Made by a program: the position numbers and the translations under genes. The notes beneath the pieces were generated by a model. That model did not search any database. It saw only the letters and a program-made list of their open reading frames with translations, and was not told the DNA's origin. Positions 27,540 through 57,725 of a DNA stretch of 64,000 nucleotides are shown piece by piece. Positions within the stretch are counted from its first letter, which is position 1; every line of letters begins with the position of its first letter. Source of the DNA: Roseivirga sp. E12 (GTDB taxonomy: Bacteria; Bacteroidota; Bacteroidia; Cytophagales; Cyclobacteriaceae). Location: positions 62,001 to 126,000 of the forward strand of contig NZ_JAGFMD010000010.1 in NCBI RefSeq assembly GCF_017592825.1, read 5' to 3'.

Positions 27540-27957
27540 TTTATTCATGCTTCTGGTATCAAACCTAGTTTGGGGCCAAACAAGCTTTGACCACATGGCC
27601 ATCGTGGTTAACGACCTGGAGGAGAGCAAAAAGTTCTATACCGAGGTGCTCGGCTTCAAGAACATTGAAGACCCTACAGGTAATCCATTAATCGATTGGG
27701 TTGAAAATGAAAATGGTCAGCAGATTCATATGATTGAGGGTGACATTTCGGGGGTTAAGCTGACCAAGTCTGTGCATTATAGTTTCTCAGTAGAGGCCTT
27801 AAGGCCATTTATAGCTAATCTTGAGAATAGAAAAGTCGACTTTGAAAGTTGGGAAGGCGAAAAAAGCGGCATCACCATTCGGCCAGATGGCATTAGGCAA
27901 ATCTATCTTCAAGATCCGAATGGCTACTGGATAGAGATAAATGATCAGCAGCCTTAA
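27520..27957 (+). CDS. Exported VOC-family (glyoxalase-like) protein
   Basis: 145 residues: a signal peptide (1-19, ending NLVWGQ) followed by one vicinal-oxygen-chelate domain. Typical elements are FDHMAIVVNDLEESKKFYTEVLGF with the metal-ligand His of DHMAI, HYSFSVEAL, and IYLQDPNGYWIEIND with the terminal Glu. Metal-dependent VOC enzymes include glyoxalase I and dioxygenases; the substrate is unknown. Export is unusual for this family. The gene starts inside the preceding small membrane-protein gene. Confidence 0.82.
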   Translation: MQRVILSLFMLLVSNLVWGQTSFDHMAIVVNDLEESKKFYTEVLGFKNIEDPTGNPLIDWVENENGQQIHMIEGDISGVKLTKSVHYSFSVEALRPFIANLENRKVDFESWEGEKSGITIRPDGIRQIYLQDPNGYWIEINDQQP

Positions 27958-44213: not shown

Positions 44214-45710
44214 ATGAACATTAAGATCATGAAAATGAGAACCCAATTTTTTACATTATTACTTTGCCTATGCGCGTTAACCGCCCTAGGTCAGAGCAGA
44301 AAAATCGATGTGGAATCTACGGTTGTAACCAACCATGAAGTATCCATCAAAGGCAAGAAGGTACCTTACTCCGCCACAGTAGGCACTCAACCCGTGTGGA
44401 ACAATGATGGCGACCCTGTTGCTACACTTTTCTTCACTTTTTATCAAAGAACCGATGTAAAGGATAAGGACACACGCCCATTGGTTATCTCTTTCAATGG
44501 TGGACCTGGTTCAGCTTCTGTCTGGATGCATTTGGCGTATACAGGTCCAAAAATTCTTAGAATTGATGATGAAGGTTATCCTATTCAGCCCTATGGTGTA
44601 AAGGACAATCCACACTCTATTTTGGATGTCGCTGATATCGTATTTGTAAACCCGGTGAACACTGGTTACTCGAGAATTGTAGATCCAGAAGCTGATAGAA
44701 CTCAATTCTTCGGGGTAAATCAAGACATCAACTACTTGGCTGAATGGATCAACACCTTTGTAACTCGAACAAATCGTTGGAACTCTCCGAAGTTTTTGAT
44801 TGGCGAAAGTTATGGTACAACTAGGGTTTCTGGTTTGTCCCACAGACTTCAAAACAGTCACTGGATGTACTTAAACGGTGTCATTCTCGTATCACCAACT
44901 GGCTTAGGTATTGATAGAGATGGCCCAGTTAATCAGGCCAATAGACTTCCGTACTATGCCGCTGCAGCTTGGTATCATAAACAATTGCCTGGCGACCTTC
45001 AAAGTAAGGACTTACTCGATGTACTTGAGGAAGCCGAGACTTATACTATGAATGAGCTACTTCCAACGCTTGCTAAAGGGGCCTGGGCTACTGATGCCGA
45101 AAAACAAGAGGCAGTGAAGATGTTCTCTCGTTATTCAGGACTAAATGAAGAAGTAATCCGTCAGCATAACCTTGATGTTCCCACTGGATTCTTCTGGAAA
45201 GAACTCCTTAGGGATGAAGGACATACAGTAGGAAGACTGGACTCTAGGTACAAGGGGCTCGATCGTATGGATGCAGGTATGAGCCCAGACTTCAACTCGG
45301 AATTAACTTCTTGGTTACACTCTTTCACGCCTGCGATCAACGGCTATTTCCAAAATTTCTTGAACTACAAGACCGACATCAAATACAACATGTTTGGCCC
45401 TGTTGGTCCATGGGACAGAAGCGGAGACAACACTGGAGAAAACCTACGTCAGGCAATGGCCATGAACCCTTACCTGCACGTAATGACACAGAGTGGATAC
45501 TATGATGGCGCAACCACATATTTCAATGCCAAATACAACATGTGGCACATGGACCCAAGCGGTAAACTAAAAGACAGGATGAGCTTTAAAGGATACAGAA
45601 GTGGTCATATGATGTACCTACGTGCTGAAGACCTCAAGAATGCCAATGAAGACATTCGTGTCTTTATCAAAAACTCTATTCCTCCGGCCGGGACACCAGC
45701 GAAGTATTAA
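44214..45710 (+). CDS. S10 family serine carboxypeptidase-like protein
   Basis: 498 residues with an exported N terminus (signal ends ALGQ at 27; starts at 44214, 44229 or 44235 all keep it). SFNGGPGSASVW (93-104) is the oxyanion-hole motif of S10 peptidases, the nucleophile is S199 in GESYGTTR, and the acid and base are likely D431 (SGYYDGATTY) and H465 (RSGHMM). S10 enzymes remove C-terminal residues; bacterial members are usually periplasmic or secreted. Likely works on exported peptides together with the preceding BNR protein, by context. Confidence 0.9.
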   Translation: MNIKIMKMRTQFFTLLLCLCALTALGQSRKIDVESTVVTNHEVSIKGKKVPYSATVGTQPVWNNDGDPVATLFFTFYQRTDVKDKDTRPLVISFNGGPGSASVWMHLAYTGPKILRIDDEGYPIQPYGVKDNPHSILDVADIVFVNPVNTGYSRIVDPEADRTQFFGVNQDINYLAEWINTFVTRTNRWNSPKFLIGESYGTTRVSGLSHRLQNSHWMYLNGVILVSPTGLGIDRDGPVNQANRLPYYAAAAWYHKQLPGDLQSKDLLDVLEEAETYTMNELLPTLAKGAWATDAEKQEAVKMFSRYSGLNEEVIRQHNLDVPTGFFWKELLRDEGHTVGRLDSRYKGLDRMDAGMSPDFNSELTSWLHSFTPAINGYFQNFLNYKTDIKYNMFGPVGPWDRSGDNTGENLRQAMAMNPYLHVMTQSGYYDGATTYFNAKYNMWHMDPSGKLKDRMSFKGYRSGHMMYLRAEDLKNANEDIRVFIKNSIPPAGTPAKY

Positions 45711-45730
45711 AACACCGAACGCAAAGAGAT

Positions 45731-45786
45731 AAGAAGCAATCTCTCAAAATCGACAGTACTTCAGTTGATTTAGGAGATTGCTTCTT
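45731..45786. repeat. Degenerate copy of the palindromic repeat core
   Basis: AAGAAGCAATCTC (45731-45743) and GAGATTGCTTCTT (45774-45786) form a 13-bp inverted repeat around a 30-base spacer. GAAGCAATC/GATTGCTTC is the inner stem of the palindromic family at 57809, 59871, 61795 and 63078, here without the outer GTCATTGCGA ends. As RNA it could also terminate the S10 gene (CTTCTTTGTTT follows). Confidence 0.6.
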
Positions 45787-45828
45787 TGTTTAATAGACCT
45801 ATCTTCAGCCTAACCGAGAACAGTAAAA

Positions 45829-46395
45829 ATGAAAAAAACAGTAATCTTCTTTGCCTTAATACTTATATCAGGGCTTAGCCTTCAGGCACAAACCCCTGCC
45901 GAACAATTTTGGAACAACTTGCAAAAACATTGCGGAAAGGCTTATGAAGGTACTTTGGCCTTACCAAAAGACGACCCTGCCTTTGGTGGTAAGCGACTCA
46001 CCATGCATGTACGCTCTTGTTCAGCAACTGAAATTAAGGTTCCATTCTTTGTTGGTGAAGATAAGTCCCGCACCTGGGTATTCACGCTAAAAGACGGAGT
46101 GGTCACCCTAAAGCATGACCATCGCCATGAAGATGGCTCCGAAGATGAGGTGACGCAATATGGTGGTACTGCTTCTAACACAGGGTCTGCTACTCTACAA
46201 GTGTTTCCTGCTGACCAGTATACGGCCACCCTATTGCCAAGAGCTGCCACTAATGTTTGGTCGGTTGGCCTAGACGAAACTACTTTCTCTTACAACCTTA
46301 CTCGTGTTAATAACAACTCGGTTTTTAAAGTGATCATGGATCTTACAAAACCTATTGAGACACCAGATGCGCCATGGGGCTGGAAAGGAAAATGA
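45829..46395 (+). CDS. Exported protein of unknown function
   Basis: 188 residues with a signal peptide (1-20, ending SLQAQ). The mature protein has two Cys (35, 64) that could pair, and blocks HCGKAYEGTL, RTWVFTLKDGVVTLKHDHRHEDGSEDE and VWSVGLDETTFSYNLTRV, which recall a conserved uncharacterised secreted family in Bacteroidota. The HDHRHEDG stretch might bind metal; this is a guess. Monocistronic, convergent with the CtlX gene. Confidence 0.75.
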   Translation: MKKTVIFFALILISGLSLQAQTPAEQFWNNLQKHCGKAYEGTLALPKDDPAFGGKRLTMHVRSCSATEIKVPFFVGEDKSRTWVFTLKDGVVTLKHDHRHEDGSEDEVTQYGGTASNTGSATLQVFPADQYTATLLPRAATNVWSVGLDETTFSYNLTRVNNNSVFKVIMDLTKPIETPDAPWGWKGK

Positions 46396-46433
46396 TAAGT
46401 TTTTAATATTATTTCTTAGCCGATTAGTGTAGA

Positions 46434-47345
46434 TCAAACAACTCTACACATCATACAACGAACGCTGCCCCCTCCATACTTCTCGATGGTTGGAATCTCA
46501 ACAGAGAAGATGTTCGAGTACTTCTCGATCTGCACTATTTGATCTTTTGTTAAACAGTCAAAGGCAGATTGTGACATTACAAGTGTAGATTCGCCCTTGT
46601 CATTTAAAACTTCAAGCATATTTCCAGCAAAGGAGTACATCTGATCCATTGTCAAAGGAATAATTTCGTGACCTGTCTTCTCTAAGGCTTCTATGACAGT
46701 ACTATGCTGCTCATCGGGAATTGACTCAAGACAAATCACTGCATACTTGGCTGCCACACACATAATCACATTTGTATGATAGACTTCTAACCCTTCCTTA
46801 TCAAAGGAATCAAAGGTAAATGCATCAAAGCCAGTCTTATTACAAAACTCCTCCACTACCTCAATATTAGTTCTGGACGAAATACATGCGTAAGCCAGTT
46901 CATTTTCATAATCCAGCACCATACTTCCTGTACTTTCCAAAAACTTCCCCTCCTCTTCAAAGGCCGTTAAGTCCACTATGTTACCCACAGAAACACCTGC
47001 TGAGGCTAATTCATCAAGAATTTCGGTTCTACGCTCCCACCTTCTGTTTTCAGCCAGCATAGGATACAGCAAAGTTTGCTCTCCGTGGAATGATACCCAG
47101 TTGTTTGGAAACACTGCATTGGGCTTAACAGGACTATCTGTATCTTCAATTACATGCACCTTAACACCATTTGCTCTCAGCTTAAATACGGCTGCGTCAA
47201 ATTCACTTAAAGCTTCCTTGCTTATACTTTCAATCTGCTCTGCGCCCTCTCTATTCTGAAAGGAATTGGATTCAGCAGTTGTTTCATCAAAACCGAAGTG
47301 TTTCGGTCTTACCATCATTATTTCTCTTGATGCTTGCCTTGTCAT
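46434..47345 (-). CDS. CtlX-type arginine-deiminase-fold hydrolase
   Basis: 303 residues of the amidinotransferase/dimethylargininase superfamily. The start IMMVRPKHFGFDETTAESNSFQN and the C-terminal GGGSVRCMMC, with likely nucleophile C297, are typical of the CtlX/citrulline-hydrolase-like branch; the catalytic His is in EVYHTNVIMCV. By family knowledge such enzymes act on citrulline or related guanidino/ureido compounds; the exact substrate is not shown. The stop of the outer-membrane gene upstream lies eight bases away, so both may be co-transcribed. Confidence 0.85.
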   Translation of the reverse strand: MTRQASREIMMVRPKHFGFDETTAESNSFQNREGAEQIESISKEALSEFDAAVFKLRANGVKVHVIEDTDSPVKPNAVFPNNWVSFHGEQTLLYPMLAENRRWERRTEILDELASAGVSVGNIVDLTAFEEEGKFLESTGSMVLDYENELAYACISSRTNIEVVEEFCNKTGFDAFTFDSFDKEGLEVYHTNVIMCVAAKYAVICLESIPDEQHSTVIEALEKTGHEIIPLTMDQMYSFAGNMLEVLNDKGESTLVMSQSAFDCLTKDQIVQIEKYSNIFSVEIPTIEKYGGGSVRCMMCRVV

Positions 47346-47353
47346 TGGTTCAA

Positions 47354-48157
47354 TTATTTGCGCTTCGCAATATTCGTACTAATACCAAATCCAAACAAGG
47401 AGTCTGGTGCAAGTTCTGACATCGCAAAGCCTCCGAAAAAGTCAATCTGAAGATTAGGACTAAGTAAATACAGTAAGCCAAAATCGATACTTTGTTGAGA
47501 GCTAACATTATCCTTGAAGCCATAGCCCTCAAGAAATACAGTCAACTTTGGAGACACAGTAAAGCCCAAGTTCAATGTCCACAACCCTACATTCCTCGAG
47601 TTTTCGATGAGTATAATTCCAACGTTATAACTGATGTTAAATTTGTCTGAAATGTTGTTCTGAAAATTGACTCTTAGATCACCAGTTATTCCCCCTCCAC
47701 TAGACAAAAACTGGCCGCCCACGTGCCCATTCAAAGCCACGGCCGGACGCCATCCTTCCTCCTCTACAAATTGGTATTTTACACCAATAGTTGTTGGTCC
47801 AAAAGAGGCATCAGATTGTTCAGTAATTACGTCATCAATGAGCTCTCGTGTACGTCCAAATTCTTGGTTCAATCGAAGCTCTAATTTGTCGGAAATTCCG
47901 TACCTGAGCAGTAGACTATTGTAAACTATATTCTGAAATTTAAAGTCAACCCCATTCGGAAAATTCACACCCAGCTGATTTGTCTGCTGCTGATAAAATC
48001 CCGTTTCAATCTGAAATAATCTAGGTGCGATAACGTAAGGAGAAGTAGTTTGTGTAGGCCGATCAGTTGCTATGGATGAAGCAGAATTATCATCTTCCTG
48101 AGCAAAGACCGACACAGACAAGAGACAAAAAAAGAAAACTAGAACTGATGTTCTCAT
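47354..48157 (-). CDS. Putative outer-membrane barrel, MetA/phenol-pathway-like transporter
   Basis: 267 residues from the ATG at 48157, chosen because it yields a clean signal peptide (ending SVFAQ); an earlier in-frame ATG adds 15 non-signal residues. The text DRPTQTTSPYVIAPRLFQIETGFYQ followed by about twelve amphipathic strands is characteristic of the 'transporter/outer membrane MetA-pathway of phenol degradation' group. Cargo unknown. It precedes the CtlX gene by eight bases. Confidence 0.8.
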   Translation of the reverse strand: MRTSVLVFFFCLLSVSVFAQEDDNSASSIATDRPTQTTSPYVIAPRLFQIETGFYQQQTNQLGVNFPNGVDFKFQNIVYNSLLLRYGISDKLELRLNQEFGRTRELIDDVITEQSDASFGPTTIGVKYQFVEEEGWRPAVALNGHVGGQFLSSGGGITGDLRVNFQNNISDKFNISYNVGIILIENSRNVGLWTLNLGFTVSPKLTVFLEGYGFKDNVSSQQSIDFGLLYLLSPNLQIDFFGGFAMSELAPDSLFGFGISTNIAKRK

Positions 48158-48238
48158 AACCAATACTTGAGATTTTTCAACAAGTAAGTCAAAAGCGCTC
48201 AAAAGACTTCATTTGCCTCTTTAAAAGTGAAAAATCAA

Positions 48239-48258
48239 TTTTTAGACAAGTCTAAAAA
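48239..48258. other. Perfect AT-rich inverted repeat
   Basis: TTTTTAGAC, AA, GTCTAAAAA. It lies between the end of hisIE (48299) and the start of the 48157 gene, 82 bases upstream of the latter. It may be an operator or a weak hisIE terminator; there is no good T-tract on the minus strand. Confidence 0.4.
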
Positions 48259-48298
48259 TATATCTTATATGATTATCAATGAGATATTTAAAACACTT

Positions 48299-48913
48299 TT
48301 ACTTATGTCTTTCTTTAAGTATTTCTATAACGTCATCCAAAGTGAAGTTTTTCGCCTCGAGAAGCATGAGCAAGTGAAAAATCAGGTCGGCAGCCTCGTT
48401 TTTAAACAGCTCTGGATTGTCGTCTTTTGCTTCTATTACTAACTCCACAGCTTCCTCACCTACCTTCTGAGCCAGCTTGTTAATTCCTTTTTCAAACATG
48501 CTTGCCGTATAGGATTCTTCAGGTGACTGCGTCTTTCGTTCTCTAATCACCTCGCTTAAATAATCTAGAAATGAAGCACCAGTTTTGTTCCCCTCACTCC
48601 AGCATGTAGCATCACCAGTATGGCAAGTTGGCCCTTCAGGATTCACTTTTACAAGCAAAGCATCTTGGTCACAATCAATGGAAATACTGACTAGATTTAG
48701 ATAGTTATTTGAGGACTCTCCCTTAGTCCACAACCGCTGTTTTGAGCGGCTAAAAAAAGTCACTTTTTCGGTGCTTAAAGTTTGCTCAATTGAAGCCTCA
48801 TTCATGTAGCCTAACATGAGTACTTTATTGGTTTGGGCATCCTGAATTATTGCCGGTACAAGCCCAGTATTTTGATCGAATACTACTTGCTCTAATGATT
48901 CAAATTTTCTCAT
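48299..48913 (-). CDS. hisI: Bifunctional PRA-CH cyclohydrolase / PRA-PH pyrophosphatase HisIE
   Basis: 204 residues. The N-terminal cyclohydrolase domain has metal ligands D80, D82, D84 ([10 protein letters not shown]) and zinc cysteines C81, C97 and C104 ([12 protein letters not shown]). The C-terminal pyrophosphohydrolase domain (116-204) has the acidic helix [14 protein letters not shown] and [11 protein letters not shown]. It performs steps 2 and 3 of histidine synthesis. It overlaps hisF by four bases and is last in the phhA-hisHAF-IE operon. Confidence 0.95.
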
Positions 48914-49671
48914 TGTGTTAGTCTTACAGGGATGTCCTTTTTGGATAAAAATTCTTTTAATTCTGGTACCGATATTTCCTTAAAATGGAAGATGCTAGCG
49001 GCTAGTGCTGCATCGGCTTTTCCTTTTGTAAATGAGTCCACAAAATGTTCCATATTTCCCGCTCCACCTGATGCTATTATAGGTATAGGTAACATTTGTG
49101 AGATCTCCGAAGTAAGCTCATCTGCAAAGCCTGCTTTTGTACCATCGTGGTCCATGGAGGTTAATAAGATCTCTCCGGCTCCTCTTTCTGTTACTTCCTT
49201 TGCCCATTCAAGAGTTCTTAACTCCGTGGCAGTCCTACCTCCTCTTACATGTACTATATGCTCTCCATCTACAAACCTTGTATCAATGGCAACTACCACA
49301 CACTGGCTTCCAAATTCCATTGCCAACTCATTAATCAACCCTGGACGCTTTACTGCCGAGGAATTGATGGAGATCTTGTCAGCGCCAGCATTTAGCAGTG
49401 CAGAAACATCTTCAATTGAGCTAATACCTCCACCTACGGTGAAAGGGATGTTAATTTGAGCAGCTACGCGCCTTACTAACTCAACAAGGGTCTTTCGCTT
49501 CTCAACAGTAGCTGTGATATCGAGAAAAACCAACTCATCGGCACCTTCCTCGGCATAACGGGCTGCTAGCTCAACTGGGTCTCCAGCATCTCGCAGGCCT
49601 ACAAAGTTGACTCCCTTGACAGTCCGGCCGTCTTTAATATCTAAACAGGGTATGATTCTCTTCGTTAACAT
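48910..49671 (-). CDS. hisF: Imidazole glycerol phosphate synthase cyclase subunit HisF
   Basis: 253 residues of the (beta/alpha)8 barrel. Catalytic aspartates are D11 (PCLDIKDG) and D130 (VAIDTRF); phosphate-binding loops are TVGGGISS and IASGGAGN. With HisH it converts PRFAR to imidazole glycerol phosphate and AICAR. It starts two bases after hisA and overlaps hisIE by four. Confidence 0.97.
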
Positions 49672-49673
49672 GT

Positions 49674-50390
49674 CTATTTAAATGAAGCTAGTTCTTCAAG
49701 ACTGATTCTTCCTTCATAATAGGCCTTACCTACTATTGTTCCATAAATATCCATTTGCTCTAATCGACTCAGGTCTTCCATGGAAGAAACACCACCACTC
49801 GCAATAAGTTTTAAGCTTGGGAAGACTTTCATTATCTTCTCATAAAGATCAAATGATGGTCCTTGCAGCAATCCATCTTTACTGACGTCAGTACAAATAC
49901 AATAGCTAATACCCAACTCAGCATACTCACTTAAAAACTCAAAAAGGTCTATTCCCGAGTCCTCTTGCCAGCCGTTAATTGCGATTTTCTCATCCTGTAC
50001 ATCAGCACCCAGGATGATAGTCTCAGGACCATATTGGTCAATCCACTCCTTCACAAGACTCTTGTCTTTAACCGCTATACTTCCAGCAGTTACTTGGTGC
50101 GCACCTGCTTCTAAAACTTCTTGGATTGATGCATTGGACTTAACCCCTCCACCAAAGTCAATTTTCAACTCCGTACCCTTACTAATAGACTCTAGGATAC
50201 CCAAATTGATAGGTTTACTGGCTTTAGCTCCCTCTAGATCAACCACATGAAGTCGGTCTATTCCGACAGATTCAAAAGCCTGAGCGACTGCTAATGGGTC
50301 ATCATTATACTCCGTCTTTTGATTATAATCACCTTGAGTAAGCCGAACTGCCTTACCTCCTATTATGTCTATTGCTGGTATTATTTTCAC
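49674..50390 (-). CDS. hisA: ProFAR isomerase HisA
   Basis: 238 residues, half-barrel-duplicated fold homologous to HisF. Catalytic D8 (PAIDIIGG) and D130 (LGADVQDE), with phosphate loops DFGGGVKS and IASGGVSS. Isomerises ProFAR to PRFAR, step 4 of histidine synthesis. It begins 32 bases after hisH and is tightly linked to hisF. Confidence 0.97.
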
Positions 50391-50422
50391 TCCTTGTAAT
50401 TACTGATTGATGGACTTTGATT

Positions 50423-51004
50423 TCACAGTTCTAGAAAGTTAGAGAGTATTTTTTCACCAACCTTTCCACTCTTTTCAGGGTGTGCCTGTAGGGCATAGAA
50501 ATTATCCTTGTGCAAGGCTGCTGAAAAAGGGTTAATGTAATCGGTCACGGCTATGGTTTCATCGCTCACTTCGGCATAATAGCTATGTACAAAATACACG
50601 TATGGATCGCTTGGAAGGTCATTAAAGAGCCGTGAATCCATTTGAGTCAACGTATTCCAACCCATTTGAGGGACCTTCAACCTTGGCTCAAATTTCTTCA
50701 CCTTGATATCAAAGATTCCTAGGCACTCAGTATCGTTCTCTTCGGTATGAGAACAAAGCAATTGCAAACCGAGACACACCCCAAAAACGGGCTGATTCAA
50801 ATCCTTAATTACTATATCTAACTGCTTGTCTTTTAGGAATCGCATGGCGGTACTTGCCTCACCTACTCCAGGGAAGATTACTTTATCGGCAGCCTGAATG
50901 ACCTCCTTATCCGCAGAAAGCACAGGCTCCACTCCTAACCTATTTAAGGCATGGATGACAGACTGCACGTTACCTGCGTTGTAGTTAACAATGACTACGC
51001 TCAT
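50423..51004 (-). CDS. hisH: Imidazole glycerol phosphate synthase glutaminase subunit HisH
   Basis: 193 residues of the class I glutamine amidotransferase fold. The triad is C77 (GVCLGLQLL), H175 and E177 (LQAHPEKSG). It supplies ammonia to HisF. The gene lies 32 bases after phhA with no terminator between, which places the histidine genes downstream of the phhA leader. hisG, hisD, hisC and hisB are not in the window. Confidence 0.96.
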   Translation of the reverse strand: MSVVIVNYNAGNVQSVIHALNRLGVEPVLSADKEVIQAADKVIFPGVGEASTAMRFLKDKQLDIVIKDLNQPVFGVCLGLQLLCSHTEENDTECLGIFDIKVKKFEPRLKVPQMGWNTLTQMDSRLFNDLPSDPYVYFVHSYYAEVSDETIAVTDYINPFSAALHKDNFYALQAHPEKSGKVGEKILSNFLEL

Positions 51005-51036
51005 AGCTTTAAAAAACTCTCCGTTTCACAAAGTGT

Positions 51037-51771
51037 TTAAACAGTTGCTTCTTTTGCCTTTAAGCGCTCCTCTATCTTAGATTTGATCTCCGGTAGTGAT
51101 TCGTATAATTGCTCATATGAGTCGATAATGAAGTAGTTTTCTTGCATGTTATCCTTTCTGTAAGGAGTATCAAGAATAGTGTCGACATCGTATTCGAAGT
51201 GGTTTGGCTCGTCAGAAAGCGAGTATTTAGTCTCTCCTGATGAGGACAGAATTCCTGCACCATAGATCTTCAGTTCTCCTTCTTCGCGGATCAGGCCAAA
51301 CTCAATTGTGAACCAGTAAATTCTGGACAAAAGGTGAATTGCCCATTCATCTTCGATCCATTCCTGACCGAACTTACTGATGGCTTGTAGGAAGTCTACG
51401 AAAGACTGATTTGCCAAAAGCGGAATATGAGCAAATACATCATGAAACATATCTGGCTCCTCTAGGTAATCCAACTCACTCATCTTTCTCACCCAAGTGG
51501 TTGCAGGAAATTTCTTATTGGCCATAAGGTCAAAGAAAAGTCCATCCTCAACTATCCCTGGCACTGCATAAATCTCCCATCCAGTAAGTGCGCGTAACAA
51601 TTTGTTAGTCTCTTCAAAGTTAGGGATCCCCTCTCCATTAAAGTTTACCTTATCCAGACCTACTAAGAACTCTTTTGTAGCGGCTGTCGGCAATGCTGGA
51701 AACTGACGATCGAAAAGTATATTCCACACTTTCTGATCTTCTGCTGTGTAATTGTCGTAATTCTGTTTCAT
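51037..51771 (-). CDS. phhA: Phenylalanine 4-monooxygenase
   Basis: 244 residues, the compact bacterial form of aromatic amino acid hydroxylases without a regulatory domain. Iron ligands are H110 and H115 (PDMFHDVFAHIP) and E157 (WFTIEFGL). It hydroxylates phenylalanine to tyrosine with tetrahydropterin and O2. It is the first structural gene after a leader peptide ORF, attenuator-like terminator and promoter (51829-51997), and is followed 32 bases later by hisH. The assignment to phenylalanine rather than tyrosine or tryptophan hydroxylase follows from bacterial family membership. Confidence 0.94.
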   Translation of the reverse strand: MKQNYDNYTAEDQKVWNILFDRQFPALPTAATKEFLVGLDKVNFNGEGIPNFEETNKLLRALTGWEIYAVPGIVEDGLFFDLMANKKFPATTWVRKMSELDYLEEPDMFHDVFAHIPLLANQSFVDFLQAISKFGQEWIEDEWAIHLLSRIYWFTIEFGLIREEGELKIYGAGILSSSGETKYSLSDEPNHFEYDVDTILDTPYRKDNMQENYFIIDSYEQLYESLPEIKSKIEERLKAKEATV

Positions 51772-51784
51772 TTCTACGGGTTGT

Positions 51785-51812
51785 AATGCTTTGTTTTTTG
51801 AATTGGTTCAAA
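51785..51812. repeat. Copy A of a duplicated leader/promoter segment
   Basis: AATGCTTTGTTTTTTGAATT and the following GGTTCAAA are similar (about 23 of 29 aligned positions) to 51942-51970, which spans the leader ORF start and the end of the promoter. Copy A lies in the phhA 5' region after the terminator, about 14-41 bases before the phhA ATG. Confidence 0.65.
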
Positions 51813-51828
51813 TCAAAAGCCCGGTCAT

Positions 51829-51860
51829 AAAAAAACCCGGCTCTTTCGGAACCGGGTCTT
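51829..51860 (-). terminator. Intrinsic terminator (attenuator) upstream of phhA
   Basis: On the minus strand AAGACCCGG (51860-51852), an 11-base loop, CCGGGTTTT (51840-51832) and a T-tract to 51829; nine base pairs with one G-T. It lies 29 bases after the leader stop and 57 bases before phhA. A third block ACCGGG (51825-51820) can pair with the same 5' arm. It could end transcripts from the upstream permease gene, but its place after the leader ORF fits an attenuator. Confidence 0.9.
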
Positions 51861-51889
51861 ATATTTTCAGTTAATTTTTTCTTTTCTGA

Positions 51890-51961
51890 TTACATATACC
51901 TACCGATCCGCAACGTTTTGTTGTGATAATAGTGGTAGTGATATGCTTTGTTTTTCAACAT
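51890..51961 (-). CDS. Tyr/His-rich leader peptide of the phhA-his operon
   Basis: 23 codons plus TAA, read ATG at 51961 to stop at 51890. Codons 7-13 (51943-51923) are TAT CAC TAC CAC TAT TAT CAC, giving YHYHYYH, with a further Tyr at codon 22. Ribosome stalling here when charged tRNA-Tyr or tRNA-His is scarce would control the terminator at 51829-51860. Codons 18-20 (CGG ATC GGT) can pair with the terminator's 5' arm. The predicted transcription start is at or within a few bases of the ATG, so it may be read from a leaderless mRNA. Function is inferred from architecture; too short for standard gene callers. Confidence 0.82.
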   Translation of the reverse strand: MLKNKAYHYHYYHNKTLRIGRYM

Positions 51962-51970
51962 TGATTCAAA
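51942..51970. repeat. Copy B of a duplicated leader/promoter segment
   Basis: Contains the first seven codons of the leader ORF and part of the -7 element (minus-strand TTTGAATCAATGTTG, then AAAAACAAAGCAT). Resembles copy A at 51785-51812. Confidence 0.65.
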
Positions 51971-51997
51971 GGTAATACCCATTTCAGATTATCCAAA
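51967..51997 (-). promoter_or_regulatory. Bacteroidetes-type promoter of the leader/phhA-his operon
   Basis: On the minus strand TTTG (51997-51994), 19 bases, TACCTTTG (51974-51967). This fits the known Bacteroidetes -33 TTTG / -7 TAnnTTTG consensus perfectly. The start of transcription should lie at about 51963-51960, at the leader ATG. Confidence 0.82.
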
Positions 51998-52039
51998 TGA
52001 CTTAAGGGGATTTTTAAACCAACGGTCATTCAACCGATA

Positions 52040-54646
52040 TTATTCACTCCTCAATACTTTGGACGGATTTACCATGGCTGTTCTCACAGCTTGATAAGCA
52101 ATTGTCAACATAGTTATCAAAAGAGCGAAGACTATGGCCACTATGGCTACATCAGCACCCATATTAATTCGATAAACATAATCGCTTAACCAATCTCCCA
52201 TAAAGAAATACGCCACTGGCAAACCTACCATTAAAGCTATGGCTATCAGTTTAAGAAAATCTGCGGATAGCAAAATCAAAATTGACTTAAATGAAGCCCC
52301 TAAGACTTTGCGAATCCCCATTTCTTTCGCTCTATGCAGTGCTATGAATGAAATCAGGCCAAACATTCCTAGGCAAGCAATGAATACAGCAATGCTAGCA
52401 AAAGTAAGAAATACATTACCCAAGCGGGATTCAAACCTGTACATACGATTGTAATAGTCGTCCATGAATTCATAGTCAAATGGTAGGCCTGGTGCCGCCT
52501 CTAACAAATTGGATTCTATAAACTGCAATGTTTCAGACAAGTCATTGGTTTCCAACTTTACATAGCCCGTATAAGACTGATTAGGGTTGTATAAGATCAC
52601 AAAAGGCTCAATACGTTGCTGCATGGATTTGAAATGAAAGTCTTTCACCACCCCTTGAACAGGCCCTTCGTAACCTCCAATGACTACATTCTGCCCTACA
52701 GCCTCTTCGGCCGACCAGTTGAAGAGTTTAGCGGCAGTTTCGTTGATAATATAGGTTGGATTCAACCCTGCCGTGTCAAGCTCATTGAAAGGCACCGCAC
52801 GTTCCATAAGGCTAAGTCCGCTTAACAACTCCATTCCCATGAGATCCATAAATTCCTTATCAGCACTTAAAAAGTATATAAGTTCATAGTCATCATCGGT
52901 GGGGCCAGTTTGGATACCGTGTGCTGAACCAACACTTATTGGCACATTGGAGGCCATACTAACCGATTTAATGTTGGGGTTAGTCATGAGTGTATTTTTG
53001 AAAGACTCGTAGTTCTTCTTCAAATCTCCATCTGACGTAAAGAAGATCACTTGTTCTTTATCCAATCCAATATTCTTGTCCTGGATGAAGTTTAGCTGCT
53101 TTTTCACCACAAGAGTAGCCACCACTAAGAAAGCCGAAATGGCAAATTGTACAATCACCAAAAACTTTCGTAGTCGATTTCCAGACCCAGAGTGAGTGAA
53201 TTTACCTTTTAACACAGTTACTGGCTTAAACATTGAAAGCACCAAGGCTGGATAAATACCTGCCAGAAATGTAATTATCAGTCCAAGCCCGCATAAAAAC
53301 AGAAGGAACTCTGATTTAAACAGGTATACAGTATTCAGTCTTTCTCCTGCCAGATCATTAAAATAAGGTAGCAGCCAATAGCTAAAAGCGATAGAAATTG
53401 CGAGCGATAGAAATACGAACAAGAATGACTCTCCTAAAAACTGACCAATAAGTTGCCTTCTGTGCGCGCCAACTACTTTACGGATTCCTACTTCTTTGGC
53501 TCTTTCTAAAGACCTTGAGGTTGCCAGGTTCACATAGTTAATGCAGGCTATCAATAAGATGAGGAAAGCCACGACAGAAAAGATGTAGACATATTGGATA
53601 TCACCTACTCTCCCTAGCTCATAATTGAGTTTAAATCTTTTCTGAAGATAGATATCATTCAAAGACTGCAGGTATGTACCACTATCTTCACTTTCTGTGG
53701 GCATATCCAGCTCAACATTTACTTTCTCCCCTACCTTTTGCTCAAAGACAATGGGATCAACATTATCTTCTAATCTTAGAAAGGTTTGAAAGCTCCAATT
53801 AGACCAGGTTTCTCTTTGTGCCCACCTTATTTCTTTAAAGGGGATTAAGAAATCAAACTGCATCATTGAATTTGCCGGTGGGTCAAGAACAACTCCGGCA
53901 ATAGCATACTGCTCTCCCTCCCTTATCATTGTTTTTCCAACAACATCCTGAGTGCCATAGTATTTCATGGCAGCTTTTTGCGTGATAACAAGCGTCTTCG
54001 GCTTGGAAAGAATCCCCTCTTCATTTCCTTGTAACAAGGGAAAAGTAAAGACATCGAAGAAAGCAGTATCAGCGAAATAGACATTCGTTGTAAATGACTG
54101 GTTGTCAATTTTCATGATTTGACCACCTAGTTCAATCACTCTAACACTGTGCCTAACCTCCTCTTCAAAGTTTCGCTTGAGGAAGGGGCCCACAATATTT
54201 GGGGTGATGGCGTCCTCACCATTAGTTACCCTGAAAATTTTGTCCTTTTGTTCGTGAAATTGATCGAAGCTCAACTGATGTTGTACGTAGAGTACTATCA
54301 GAATGAAACTAGTGAGACCAACCGCAAGTCCTGATAGATTAATGATAGAATAGGCTTTGTGCTTTTTGGCGCTTCTAAAAGCGACCTTGAAATTGTTTTT
54401 GACCATAACTAAATTGTTTTGAGTATATCTTTTTGAGTTTCTTCGTTTGAGGGTATGCCAACGCATGAACTTGAATACATTAAGCCAGTACTTCTTCCTA
54501 GCCTTAGCAGGTCCATACTTATCATAATGATCCAAATAGCGTTCTTCTAGATCTCCAGCTATCTCCTCTTGGAGTGGATCGTCACAATACCAATGAAAGA
54601 TTCTTTCGGCCAACCTAGGCGGCTTTCGAATTTGGAATGAATTCAT
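52040..54646 (-). CDS. MacB/FtsX-type ABC transporter permease with N-terminal prefix domain
   Basis: 868 residues. The N-terminal prefix (1-75; LAERIFHWYCDDPLQEEIAG, then DLEERY) marks the 'permease prefix domain 2' group of Bacteroidota. Two FtsX units follow, each with MacB_PCD-like extracellular domains and transmembrane helices; sequences EVGIRKVVGAHRRQLIGQFLGE and EMGIRKVLGASFKSILILL repeat the FtsX signature. No ATPase is encoded here, so it must use one in trans. Its start overlaps the PadR regulator by four bases, a conserved pairing. Confidence 0.9.
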   Translation of the reverse strand: MNSFQIRKPPRLAERIFHWYCDDPLQEEIAGDLEERYLDHYDKYGPAKARKKYWLNVFKFMRWHTLKRRNSKRYTQNNLVMVKNNFKVAFRSAKKHKAYSIINLSGLAVGLTSFILIVLYVQHQLSFDQFHEQKDKIFRVTNGEDAITPNIVGPFLKRNFEEEVRHSVRVIELGGQIMKIDNQSFTTNVYFADTAFFDVFTFPLLQGNEEGILSKPKTLVITQKAAMKYYGTQDVVGKTMIREGEQYAIAGVVLDPPANSMMQFDFLIPFKEIRWAQRETWSNWSFQTFLRLEDNVDPIVFEQKVGEKVNVELDMPTESEDSGTYLQSLNDIYLQKRFKLNYELGRVGDIQYVYIFSVVAFLILLIACINYVNLATSRSLERAKEVGIRKVVGAHRRQLIGQFLGESFLFVFLSLAISIAFSYWLLPYFNDLAGERLNTVYLFKSEFLLFLCGLGLIITFLAGIYPALVLSMFKPVTVLKGKFTHSGSGNRLRKFLVIVQFAISAFLVVATLVVKKQLNFIQDKNIGLDKEQVIFFTSDGDLKKNYESFKNTLMTNPNIKSVSMASNVPISVGSAHGIQTGPTDDDYELIYFLSADKEFMDLMGMELLSGLSLMERAVPFNELDTAGLNPTYIINETAAKLFNWSAEEAVGQNVVIGGYEGPVQGVVKDFHFKSMQQRIEPFVILYNPNQSYTGYVKLETNDLSETLQFIESNLLEAAPGLPFDYEFMDDYYNRMYRFESRLGNVFLTFASIAVFIACLGMFGLISFIALHRAKEMGIRKVLGASFKSILILLSADFLKLIAIALMVGLPVAYFFMGDWLSDYVYRINMGADVAIVAIVFALLITMLTIAYQAVRTAMVNPSKVLRSE

Positions 54647-54984
54647 GATTCGCTCCCTCCAAATACATAACCTGGAATTTTCGACCAGAGGTACTGCCGA
54701 TGTTCTTTTGCTTCAAGCAATGCCGACTTGCCGGCTGAAGTAACTTCAAAGATTCGTTTGCGTCTTCCTCCTCTTTTTTCAGAGGCACCACCTAAGTCAG
54801 ACTTTACATAGCCTTTCTCCTCTAGGCGATAAAGTGCAGTATGTACCGAACTCATATTTACCGATCTACCCAACTCCTCCTCTATCACATTGGTAATTGA
54901 TAGGCCATAGGCCTGCCCCTGTTGCGTAGCCACTACAAGCAGTACTGTTTCTTCAAACTCTCCTAAAAAGTGTCTTCTTTCCAT
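54643..54984 (-). CDS. PadR-family transcriptional regulator
   Basis: 113 residues. The winged-helix PadR domain spans about 8-85: LGEFEETVLLVVATQQGQAY at the start and VHTALYRLEEKGYVKSDLGG in the recognition region, with a wing KRGGRRKRIFEVT. It is translationally coupled to the FtsX permease and probably represses that operon. A perfect inverted repeat ATTAGTAAAACTAAT lies 19 bases upstream. Confidence 0.92.
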   Translation of the reverse strand: MERRHFLGEFEETVLLVVATQQGQAYGLSITNVIEEELGRSVNMSSVHTALYRLEEKGYVKSDLGGASEKRGGRRKRIFEVTSAGKSALLEAKEHRQYLWSKIPGYVFGGSES

Positions 54985-55002
54985 TGGTTTAATATCTTAC
55001 CC

Positions 55003-55017
55003 ATTAGTAAAACTAAT
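55003..55017. promoter_or_regulatory. Inverted repeat, candidate PadR operator
   Basis: ATTAGT, AAA, ACTAAT: a perfect 15-bp palindrome 19-33 bases upstream of the PadR ATG (54984), in the position expected of an autoregulatory operator. Binding is inferred. Confidence 0.5.
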
Positions 55018-55197
55018 AAAAATAAATATCTATTTATACAGTGATGCACCCAATCAGTAATTCGTTGCACTGAACCGGATATTATCACAGACGAAGTGTC
55101 GATCGATTCATTACGTCTACACATTGTCTAGCTGCTCCTCGAGCATATTTAATCCATAAATTCTTACATTTGAGGTGACACTATCTTTAGACTGAAT

Positions 55198-55782
55198 ATG
55201 ATAAAAGCAGCTAAACTCTCTCTTTGTGCACTGGTTTTAACACTTTGTGCTTGTAGTAATTCGATTGATGTGGATCCGGATACTGGGTTTGAGATTTTTA
55301 CAATTCCTGCTGGGGGACACAATTCCATCATTAGGAATGAGGCTTTCACAGGCTCAGGGGTTAATATTAAAGCAATCTTTGATAATAGTGCTCAATACAC
55401 CTTGGAGGTAGCATCAGATCAAGCTGACATTAACAAACTCATTGGTTTTTCTGATTGTACACAACACCATCAAAGTGAAAGTGGTCGCATTGGCTGGAGA
55501 TGGTTTAATGACGAATTGCAGATTCTCGCCTACACCTATTTAGAAGGCAACCTATCCTTTGAACTTATGGGGGCTATCCCTCTCAACACGGAAGTAGATT
55601 TATCTGTCAGAATTGTCGGAGACACTTACCAATACTCGGGCACAGGACTGCAATCTGTGACTATGCAAAGAAGTAGCAATTGTGAGACAGGAGAGAACTA
55701 TTGGTTATGGCCTTATTTCGGTGGAGACCAACCAGCCCCTCATGAAGTAAAAATTCAACTAAAAAGAACGGTTATTGACTAG
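55198..55782 (+). CDS. Lipoprotein of unknown function
   Basis: 194 residues. The N terminus MIKAAKLSLCALVLTLCAC has a lipobox with lipidated Cys19. The mature part is beta-rich with a pair of Cys (about 85 and 161) and a possible carbohydrate-binding-like aromatic segment GRIGWRWFNDELQILAYTY. No family recognised. Terminated by a strong bidirectional hairpin shared with the VWA gene. Confidence 0.75.
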   Translation: MIKAAKLSLCALVLTLCACSNSIDVDPDTGFEIFTIPAGGHNSIIRNEAFTGSGVNIKAIFDNSAQYTLEVASDQADINKLIGFSDCTQHHQSESGRIGWRWFNDELQILAYTYLEGNLSFELMGAIPLNTEVDLSVRIVGDTYQYSGTGLQSVTMQRSSNCETGENYWLWPYFGGDQPAPHEVKIQLKRTVID

Positions 55783-55801
55783 AACTAGTCTGATAAAATT
55801 C

Positions 55802-55834
55802 AAAAGCCCCTCCTTAATAAGGAGGGGCTTTTTT
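55802..55834. terminator. Strong bidirectional terminator
   Basis: AAAAGCCCCTCCTT (55802-55815), three-base loop, AAGGAGGGGCTTTT (55819-55832): a 14-bp perfect stem with A/T tracts on both sides, between convergent genes ending at 55782 and 55836. Confidence 0.95.
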
Positions 55835-55835
55835 G

Positions 55836-57725
55836 TCACTCACCCTCACCAAGTAACTCGGCCATCTCAACTAGCTTGATCAATTCAGCTCTGTAGCCTT
55901 CTTCATCTTCGCCTTTTGCAGCCTTTGCCAAACGGATTACCGCGTCAAACTTAAGACCATTCGAATAATCAGAATCTCTGAGTAACATTCCAAAACCTGC
56001 AACTGCTGCTGACCATCTAAAGTTGTTGGAAGTCTTTCCGATCTTCATGACATCATTTTTGACCACTGTATCCAAATAGATCGACTTATCTTCATCTGGC
56101 TTCTTATATCGTAGTTTTACTGTCATCAAGTCAGATTCATTTCCACTCAGCTCGATCTTCTTTTTCTGACGATACTTCAGGTCATCCAGAGGTTTAAAGT
56201 TACTTTCAACTCCCACCGGGATCACCTCATAAAGAGCCGCCACACTGTGTCCTGACCCCAGTTCGCCAGCATCCTTCTTATCGTTATTGAAGTCTTCGTC
56301 ATTTAATCTTCTATTCTCATAACCGATAAGTCGATAGGCCTGAACAGTAGCTGGGTTAAACTCTACTTGAATTTTAACATCCTTAGCGATAGTAAAAAGC
56401 GTACCTCCAAACTCTTTTACAAGCACCTTTTTCGCCTCAAGGATATTATCGATATAAGCATGGTTACCATTACCCTTATCGGCTAGTACTTCCATTTTAG
56501 AGTCTTTGTAGTTACCCATCCCATATCCAAGTACTGTCAAGAACACCCCACTCTTTCTCTGATTTTCGATAAGGCTCTCCATGTCATCATCGCTAGAGGC
56601 ACCTACATTAAAATCTCCATCGGTAGCCAAGATTACACGGTTGTTACCTCCTTCTATGAAGTTCTCTTTTGCAATCTTATAGGCAAGCTGTATTCCTGCT
56701 CCTCCGGCTGTGGAACCACCAGCATTAAGCTTATCCAACGCCTTAAGGATTTTCTTCTTCTCGTTACCTGGAGTAGACTCCAGTACTTCTCCAGCTGCCC
56801 CGGCATACACCACCATTGCTACACGGTCTTTTCGTCTAAGCTCATTAATCAACAGCTTGAATGATTTCTTCAAAAGAGGCAACTTGTTGTGATTACCCAT
56901 TGACCCTGATACATCTATCAAGAAGACAATATTAGAGGCAGGAAGATTATCCATTTCTATTTTCTCTCCTTGAATACCTACATGAACTAGCTTATGGTCC
57001 TCATTCCATGGTGCTAAAGACACTTCATGTTCTACACCAAATGGATGTTTCCCTTTTGGTGATTCGTAGTCATAATTGAAATAATTGATCATTTCTTCAA
57101 TCTTAACAGCATCTTTTGGAGGCAATTGTCCGGCATTAATAAACCTTCTCACATTACTGTATGAGGCAGCATCTACATCAATTGAAAGTGTGCTATAAGG
57201 ATTCTTCCAAGGGGATTTGAAACCGTTTTCATCGATCTTTTTGTATGACTCATTGGATGGACGATAACTGTCGAAATACACCGATTTTTTATATGCCGGA
57301 GAAGGCATTGAGGCCATATCCACCTCATACTCTACATTAGCCTGCGCCAGGCTATTTGATCTTCTCCGACTTCTGCGAGAGTTGCTCTGCACTCCGGTGA
57401 CAACAACTTCTGCGAGAGAAACCGCATCTGGAGCCAACATTACATTCAAGGTGTTAGATTGCCCCACTTTTATTTCTTGTGTGATGTATCCGAGAAATCT
57501 GAAAACCAAAACACTCCCGGTATCAGGTACCCTTATACTGAACTTCCCATCTTTATTTGTAGTCGTCCCTAATGTTGTGCCCTTTAACAAAACCGTTACC
57601 TGTGGTAATGGCAAGCCATCATCAGCTCCTGTAATTTTACCTGTTATTACTCTTTGAAATTTTTCTTCCATTGGATTATGGAATCCGATGAAAAGTGTCA
57701 TCATTATGATTAATACCTGCTTCAT
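55836..57725 (-). CDS. VWA-domain protein with CarboxypepD_reg module (YfbK-like)
   Basis: 629 residues. A short hydrophobic N terminus is followed by a CarboxypepD_reg module (25-112; GKITGADDGLPLPQVTVLL to SLAEVVVTG), a YfbK-type N-terminal VWA-associated region (about 170-260), a von Willebrand A domain with MIDAS DVSGS (271-275), and a DUF3520-like C-terminal region (about 440-620). Probably an exported protein-binding factor. Its module is closely similar to that of the anti-sigma/TonB hybrid encoded divergently at 58475, suggesting recent sharing or gene conversion. Confidence 0.9.
   Translation of the reverse strand: MKQVLIIMMTLFIGFHNPMEEKFQRVITGKITGADDGLPLPQVTVLLKGTTLGTTTNKDGKFSIRVPDTGSVLVFRFLGYITQEIKVGQSNTLNVMLAPDAVSLAEVVVTGVQSNSRRSRRRSNSLAQANVEYEVDMASMPSPAYKKSVYFDSYRPSNESYKKIDENGFKSPWKNPYSTLSIDVDAASYSNVRRFINAGQLPPKDAVKIEEMINYFNYDYESPKGKHPFGVEHEVSLAPWNEDHKLVHVGIQGEKIEMDNLPASNIVFLIDVSGSMGNHNKLPLLKKSFKLLINELRRKDRVAMVVYAGAAGEVLESTPGNEKKKILKALDKLNAGGSTAGGAGIQLAYKIAKENFIEGGNNRVILATDGDFNVGASSDDDMESLIENQRKSGVFLTVLGYGMGNYKDSKMEVLADKGNGNHAYIDNILEAKKVLVKEFGGTLFTIAKDVKIQVEFNPATVQAYRLIGYENRRLNDEDFNNDKKDAGELGSGHSVAALYEVIPVGVESNFKPLDDLKYRQKKKIELSGNESDLMTVKLRYKKPDEDKSIYLDTVVKNDVMKIGKTSNNFRWSAAVAGFGMLLRDSDYSNGLKFDAVIRLAKAAKGEDEEGYRAELIKLVEMAELLGEGE

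Follow-up and report, generated by a model that had tools for sequence, protein, structure and literature searches.

A putative leader-peptide attenuator with tyrosine and histidine codons upstream of phhA-hisHAF-hisIE in Roseivirga

What controls an operon in which a gene for phenylalanine hydroxylation stands in front of four histidine genes? The window, meaning the whole 64,000-nt stretch of DNA from the marine bacterium Roseivirga sp. E12 analysed here, carries on its minus strand phhA (51037-51771), encoding phenylalanine 4-monooxygenase (phenylalanine to tyrosine), followed by hisH (50423-51004), hisA (49674-50390), hisF (48910-49671) and hisIE (48299-48913). Intergenic gaps from phhA to hisIE are at most 32 nt or are replaced by overlap, so a single transcript for phhA-hisHAF-hisIE is likely. 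Judged by family assignment, the encoded enzymes would make tyrosine and histidine, the two amino acids that a short upstream leader would sense. The anatomy of this leader, its conservation, its alternative pairings and the correlation of its codons with operon content are the observations considered here. Control of phhA-hisHAF-hisIE most probably lies with a bivalent leader, carrying Tyr and His codons, that acts as a ribosome-mediated transcription attenuator.

On the minus strand, a -33 element TTTG (51997-51994; consensus as in the available text of PMC7366714) is followed after 19 nt by the -7 element TACCTTTG (TAnnTTTG, 51974-51967) and, five nt further on, by the ATG at 51961. The leader ORF MLKNKAYHYHYYHNKTLRIGRYM has 23 codons (51890-51961, stop included), and its regulatory codons 7-13 (51923-51943) read Tyr-His-Tyr-His-Tyr-Tyr-His. 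A terminator precedes phhA. All of these elements had been described in a sequence-only reading of the DNA, and each stands: the TTTG-N19-TACCTTTG promoter on direct reading of the minus strand, the 23-codon ORF on translation, the 9-bp terminator with its T-tract on sequence and folding, and phhA with four his genes on five NCBIfam matches above cut-off. The leader is the sole short ORF (8-45 codons, counted from the first Met) in the window with at least five Tyr/His per eight codons. First-order Markov shuffles (n = 40) yield 0.425 such ORFs per 64 kb at five or more, 0.025 at six or more and zero at seven or more. Given the single such ORF in the window and the empty class at seven or more, the run is not attributable to chance.

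Generic methods detect little of this arrangement. A scanner that seeks the sigma-70 consensus flagged neither the leader promoter nor the hairpin. A search with Rfam covariance models over 45000-56000, at E up to 1, gave no match at the leader, and a T-box or other known RNA family was set aside for that reason. Two minor features of the window share elements with the leader. The string AAAACAAAGCAT is present twice on the minus strand, within the leader ORF (51954-51943) and just before phhA (51797-51786), possibly by chance. At 27893, also on the minus strand, another short ORF (MPSGRMVMPLFSPSQLSK...) opens 4 nt after a TAnnTTTG box, and the scan found no terminator behind it.

The position of the promoter bears on how translation of the leader would begin. 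In Flavobacterium psychrophilum, the TAnnTTTG box is placed at -12 to -5 in the available text of PMC9723704. If the -7 box occupies the same position here, transcription is predicted to start at 51962 or close to it. Of 66 leaders collected before phhA in related genomes (described below), 40 have a box with at least 5/6 matches at 4 or 5 nt ahead of their ATG, and 27 of these boxes are perfect. The corresponding counts are 11/648 for other nearby ATGs (1 perfect), 2/57 for long ORFs of the window (none perfect) and 3% for shuffles. The original choice of start favoured an in-frame ATG with TTTG close upstream. When the ATG nearest the run is taken and the box disregarded, the count is 39/66 (24 perfect); the farthest in-frame ATG gives 32/66 and ORFs with a single ATG give 27/43. 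A box 4-5 nt before the ATG would place the leader AUG at +1 or +2, provided that the F. psychrophilum position holds here, and the leader ORF is probably leaderless. Leaderless or very short 5' ends are rare in the phylum, at 5.5% in the part of the F. psychrophilum study available (PMC9723704), and 5' ends under 10 nt amount to 3.7% in Bacteroides thetaiotaomicron according to the available text of PMC7366714.

The intrinsic terminator hairpin CCCGGTTCCGAAAGAGCCGGG occupies 51834-51858 and starts about 32 nt beyond the stop of the leader ORF. Its stem has 9 pairs including one G-U, counted from 51857, and its T-tract consists of seven T (51829-51835), the first of which is paired in the stem. 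Folding recovers this hairpin (z = -3.9 for the region). Region 3 (CCCGGTTCCG) comprises the terminator 5' arm and loop within 51834-51858. Folding and alignment place region 1 (GCATATCACTACC) at 51934-51946, where it pairs with region 2 (1:2 stem). Region 2 (CGGATCGGTAGGTATATGT, 51892-51910) contributes its 5' part as an antiterminator arm and its 3' part as the partner of region 1. The antiterminator and protector pairings are predicted to be mutually exclusive. Right after the T-tract (51828-51819, minus), ACCGGGC could pair with CCCGGT of the terminator 5' arm as a possible alternative hairpin; this partner is also found in L002 and L003, and not as such in L004.

The pairings were examined in an alignment of 17 sequences, consisting of 16 Roseivirga loci and L018; L013 was left out, its leader peptide being the same as that of L012. 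The terminator is paired in 98% of cells, with one G-C to A-U exchange in 5/17 sequences, and its covariation score exceeds 500/500 shuffles. Terminator pairs with two-sided change show no excess, with 207/500 shuffles reaching that number. The antiterminator (CGGAA.CGG / CCG.G.TTCCG) is paired in 94% of cells against at most 63% in slid controls, and the 1:2 stem in 92.5% against at most 47.6%. Within these 17 sequences, neither pairing shows two-sided changes and neither beats column shuffles. Support from a wider range comes from comparison of the antiterminator duplex with base-shuffled versions of region 2, in which p < 0.05 is reached in 46 of the 66 non-redundant leaders, from several families, with about 3 expected. 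The duplex of the window itself (p = 0.052) is among the weaker ones. Between lineages, the letters of the antiterminator differ on both sides, as in AGGAATAGGA/GCCTATTCC in L040 and TGAAACGGT/CCCGTTTC in L268.

A model of the translating ribosome was used to connect the codons with these pairings. Transcripts were folded up to the terminator 3' arm with the footprint blocked, the footprint being assumed to extend from -14 to +15 of the A-site. With the ribosome on the Tyr/His codons, the 5' arm of the terminator forms a mean of 10.2 pairs with upstream RNA across the 66 leaders. The mean is 3.6 on the next eight codons, 5.0 at the stop codon and 6.0 in the ribosome-free state. Pairing on the run exceeds pairing after the run in 66/66 leaders and the ribosome-free value in 51/66. 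In the window leader, antiterminator pairing extends from codon 2 through 14 and breaks down at codon 15, codon 13 being the final regulatory one; ribosomes positioned before the run likewise leave the antiterminator open in the folding. A clear switch is absent in 5/66 leaders. In 53 of the 61 leaders with a clear switch, the switch-off codon lies 0-3 codons past the last Tyr/His codon, compared with a mean of 38 and a maximum of 49 over 5000 permutations. The switch precedes the last Tyr in L011 and L012.

The off-state is less uniform in the model. At least 80% of the run-stalled antiterminator pairs remain in 25/66 leaders when ribosome-free and in 13/66 with the ribosome at the stop codon, and the window retains 61% and 43%, respectively. 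Half or fewer of these pairs remain in 31/66 ribosome-free and in 38/66 with the ribosome at the stop. In the folding, a stall on the run would free the antiterminator and passage beyond the run would mask it. The stalled state, with its boundary, is thus better supported by the folding than a uniform off-state is.

The proposed mechanism proceeds from these features. Transcription would begin 0-1 nt ahead of the leader AUG, and a ribosome would load at the very 5' end. When both charged tRNAs are plentiful, the ribosome would clear codons 7-13 and cover region 2, and the terminator would form. When Tyr-tRNA or His-tRNA is scarce, the ribosome would stall on the run and region 1 would be kept off region 2. 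The freed region 2 could then pair with the terminator 5' arm, and read-through would allow the operon to be transcribed. PhhA would convert phenylalanine to tyrosine, and HisHAF and HisIE would make histidine. The leader would behave as an OR gate in which either shortage alone is expected to raise expression.

Conservation within the genus provides a test that had been set beforehand. The gene phhA is found in 18 of 19 same-genus genomes, that of the window included. Seventeen loci (L001-L017) have a complete upstream region; L021, truncated at the 5' end, was excluded. Leader and terminator are present in 17/17 of the complete loci. On alignment, drift affects the flanks and spares both the Tyr/His run and the terminator, the pattern that the sequence-only reading had named as supportive. 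The case named there as contrary, a terminator kept with the Tyr/His codons lost, is absent among the 17 loci, in which the run always contains Tyr and at least one His. R. seohaensis (L207) and R. ehrenbergii (L208), with PhhA 85% identical, have the leader MLHSSAHHYYYYYPNDRNGSAM. The RNA is kept in L005, where a stop falls inside GGTAG, and in L007, where the frame shifts. These patterns suggest that the first half of the leader is kept as codons and the second half as RNA.

The codon content of the leader varies with the genes behind phhA. From 212 phhA loci, in which some genomes are represented twice and one locus is partial, 211 were scanned. The criteria for a leader pool Tyr with His and take no account of the gene that follows. 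A leader with a terminator is present in 74 loci, or 66 after removal of identical peptide-terminator pairs. A leader is termed his-linked when hisH lies within 400 nt and unlinked when there is no hisH in at least 1.4 kb seen downstream, which makes 64 of the 66 classifiable. Among 35 linked leaders, of which 29 are from Roseivirga (16) and Algoriphagus-type genomes (13), the eight-codon core holds at least one His in 34 and at least two in 32 (mean 2.54). In contrast, 8 of the 29 unlinked leaders have one His in the core and none has two or more (mean 0.28; Mann-Whitney 1.6e-11, uncorrected for kinship). Leaders without hisH include those of Fulvivirga (MNSKYYYYYYYRITP, L210), Marivirga (MNFTHNTYYYYYQAP, L209) and Hymenobacter (MSRFRQSFYYYYPT, L232). 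Leaders with hisH include AYHYHYYH in Roseivirga, FVHHSYYH in Algoriphagus (L224) and YHSYSHYH in Litoribacter (L217). Within one genus (g23), the core is YHYAYYH in G091, which has hisH, and YYYY in G040, which has no hisH there.

This correlation rests on few independent switches, and its phylogenetic independence is limited. An unrooted PhhA tree of 64 rows requires at least 6 changes in hisH linkage and at least 5 in the presence of two or more His. Well-supported branches carry only 2 independent pairs, of which on average 1.2 agree, 0.0 disagree and 0.8 show no difference, too few for significance. Exceptions occur in both directions. L141 and L292, of one genus, have a Tyr-only leader with hisH about 108 nt on; L181, outside the 66 leaders, has four Tyr and one His with hisH; and L131/L135 have YYHSNKYYHY with hisH absent within 3 kb. 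For L141 and L181, the idea that the gap between phhA and hisH holds a promoter or terminator of its own was considered and dropped, since L287 (= L117), with a mixed leader, has a similar promoter-like site. By the automatic criteria, no leader is found at 28 of 69 his-linked, 106 unlinked and 3 unclassified loci; at least 6 of those 28 (L037, L047, L049, L052, L108, L116) have an Algoriphagus-type ORF in a looser scan. Class-wide draws covering 396 genomes show phhA adjoining hisH, among the matches listed, only in G000, G014, G016, G071, G086, G126 and G139, all from the taxonomic order of the window. Family searches for this linkage yielded one additional locus, from G076, which repeats the L141 exception.

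The remaining histidine genes offer a further comparison. hisG is located elsewhere in the genome than the phhA operon. In 19/19 Roseivirga loci, the most His-rich short ORF upstream of hisG contains 3-5 His per seven codons and at most two Tyr, and in the window genome (L086, G000:C11:1530104-1533146) this ORF is MKSYIALRAAHAHRFHHLV. The ATG of the hisG leader falls 6-7 nt past the box in 17 of the 18 loci listed, where the choice of start favoured nearness to the box. The Tyr-dominated leaders without hisH and the His-rich ORFs before hisG support the earlier proposal that two amino acids are read before phhA. Where hisH stands elsewhere (21 places in 18 genomes, most with phhA alone), no short ORF with at least four Tyr/His per eight codons lies within 400 nt upstream. 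In at least five such places (L192, L195, L196, L198, L200), a frame ending PSTKG.. runs up to hisH; we take this to be the end of HisB, that is, the usual his operon before hisH. A likely history, drawn against an unrooted tree, is that the his genes split, hisHAF-IE arrived downstream of phhA and His codons were added to the Tyr leader. On balance, the evidence favours a leaderless Tyr-OR-His attenuator of this origin, in which a Tyr-only phhA leader would have gained His codons where his genes joined, in several Cytophagales lineages, and the codon content would be a record of the operon products.

Other explanations of the Tyr/His run have to be weighed against a bivalent attenuator. An attenuator that senses tyrosine only, with His codons as neutral stand-ins for Tyr, would draw on the closeness of the two codon pairs: CAY and UAY are one base apart and both can keep the RNA stem, and 112 of 128 core codons in 16 Roseivirga leaders are [TC]A[TC], so that a single transition interchanges Tyr and His. 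Tyr-only runs are also the common state before phhA without hisH. Neutral stand-ins, however, would be expected without his genes too, and the counts for two or more His are 0/29 there and 32/35 with hisH, uncorrected for kinship. Most Algoriphagus-type cores have more His than Tyr, and the core of Anditalea is mostly His. This explanation appears unlikely.

Codons 7-14 of the window leader are every one NAY, and queuosine is common to the tRNAs for Tyr, His, Asn and Asp, which raises the idea of a sensor of queuosine-modified tRNAs instead of amino acids. Asn and Asp are nevertheless seldom inside the runs of relatives, and the split between Tyr and His follows gene function, which makes such a sensor very improbable. 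It is similarly improbable that the small peptide has a function of its own, such as that of a metal-binding YHYHYYH serving the iron-dependent PhhA. Although a His/Tyr-rich peptide could bind metal, Tyr-only forms precede the same enzyme, the position of the run is tied to the antiterminator, and the end of the peptide is not conserved as protein in relatives. Finally, the hairpin would also stop transcription arriving from the ADOP-type permease gene upstream (52040-54646) and could be the ordinary terminator of that gene, accompanied by a chance short ORF. Within the flanks seen, however, L001-L004 are the only ones among the 17 Roseivirga loci with a permease homologue upstream, while leader and terminator persist, and the chance of such a Tyr/His run is low; this reading is hardly credible.

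The bivalent attenuator can be compared with well-studied systems. In his and trp attenuation of Enterobacteria (HisL/TrpL), leader codons for the regulated amino acid, 1:2, 2:3 and 3:4 pairings and a terminator before the first gene are present as they are here. Unlike HisL and TrpL, the leader described here has codons for two amino acids of separate pathways, no Rfam match, a probably leaderless ORF and a Bacteroidota promoter. thrL (Thr/Ile) and ilvL (Ile/Val/Leu) of E. coli are multivalent, with one leader for several amino acids. The amino acids of thrL and ilvL come from linked pathways, whereas Tyr and His are made separately and are joined here through the operon arrangement. Leaderless attenuator ORFs that open at the transcript 5' end are present in Actinobacteria (Corynebacterium, Mycobacterium), in another phylum and for other amino acids.

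In the same phylum, clues for leader-peptide attenuation are reported in the available text on F. psychrophilum, where attenuation is proposed upstream of amino-acid biosynthesis operons; the main text of that paper does not contain the words tyrosine or histidine (PMC9723704). According to the available text of a 2010 survey, its authors knew of demonstrated leader peptides from Proteobacteria and Actinobacteria only, until they added a case in Firmicutes (PMC2965389). In a paper on the his genes of Bacteroidota, attenuation is treated in a single passage, which concerns general regulation upstream of hisG, and the main text is without the words 'leader' and 'phenylalanine' (PMC8305728). Neither a mixed Tyr/His leader nor a phhA leader is described in the available text of the open-licence PMC literature searched. 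The mechanism of attenuation is already known. What looks new is the pairing of Tyr with His, the match between leader codons and operon content and, for Bacteroidota, a leaderless start. If correct, one RNA switch would integrate the scarcity of two amino acids whose pathways are unrelated, and it would show how an operon that takes in further genes can have its switch re-aimed through changed codons. Natural controls are provided by the Tyr-dominated leaders where phhA stands alone and by the His-rich leader ORFs before hisG. A phylum with few described attenuators would gain an example that is widespread, open to testing and probably leaderless at its start. Tyr-run leaders with terminators also stand before phhA outside Cytophagales, in L244 and L249 (Chitinophagales), in L256 and L268 (unclassified Bacteroidota) and in similar loci, which suggests that a tyrosine attenuator is widespread beyond Cytophagales.

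A switch responsive to tyrosine starvation raises the question of how tyrosine is made in these bacteria. In the window genome, PheA/PDT and 4-HPPD are present and TyrA is not found above cut-off. A hidden TyrA was rejected, the weak PF02153 match being a 288-aa 3-hydroxyisobutyrate-dehydrogenase-like protein. Since PheA is present without a TyrA above cut-off, PhhA is probably the route to tyrosine in this genome. A purely catabolic PhhA was set aside, as a Tyr-starvation switch would then make little sense; given 4-HPPD, tyrosine breakdown is possible in the window genome (G000). A tyrosine-making PhhA, beside a TyrA-type enzyme, has been proposed from fitness data in Echinicola vietnamensis, according to the available text of PMC7311316, and such a role in these bacteria would gain support from the attenuator. 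A clear TyrA (at least 98 bits) is present in 4/19 Roseivirga genomes, and tyrosine therefore need not depend on PhhA throughout the genus; one more genome (G008) has a match just above cut-off. In one congener, phhA is preceded at about 1.3 kb, on the same strand, by a TyrA-type gene (G003:C1:899207-899650, minus), and both routes to tyrosine adjoin.
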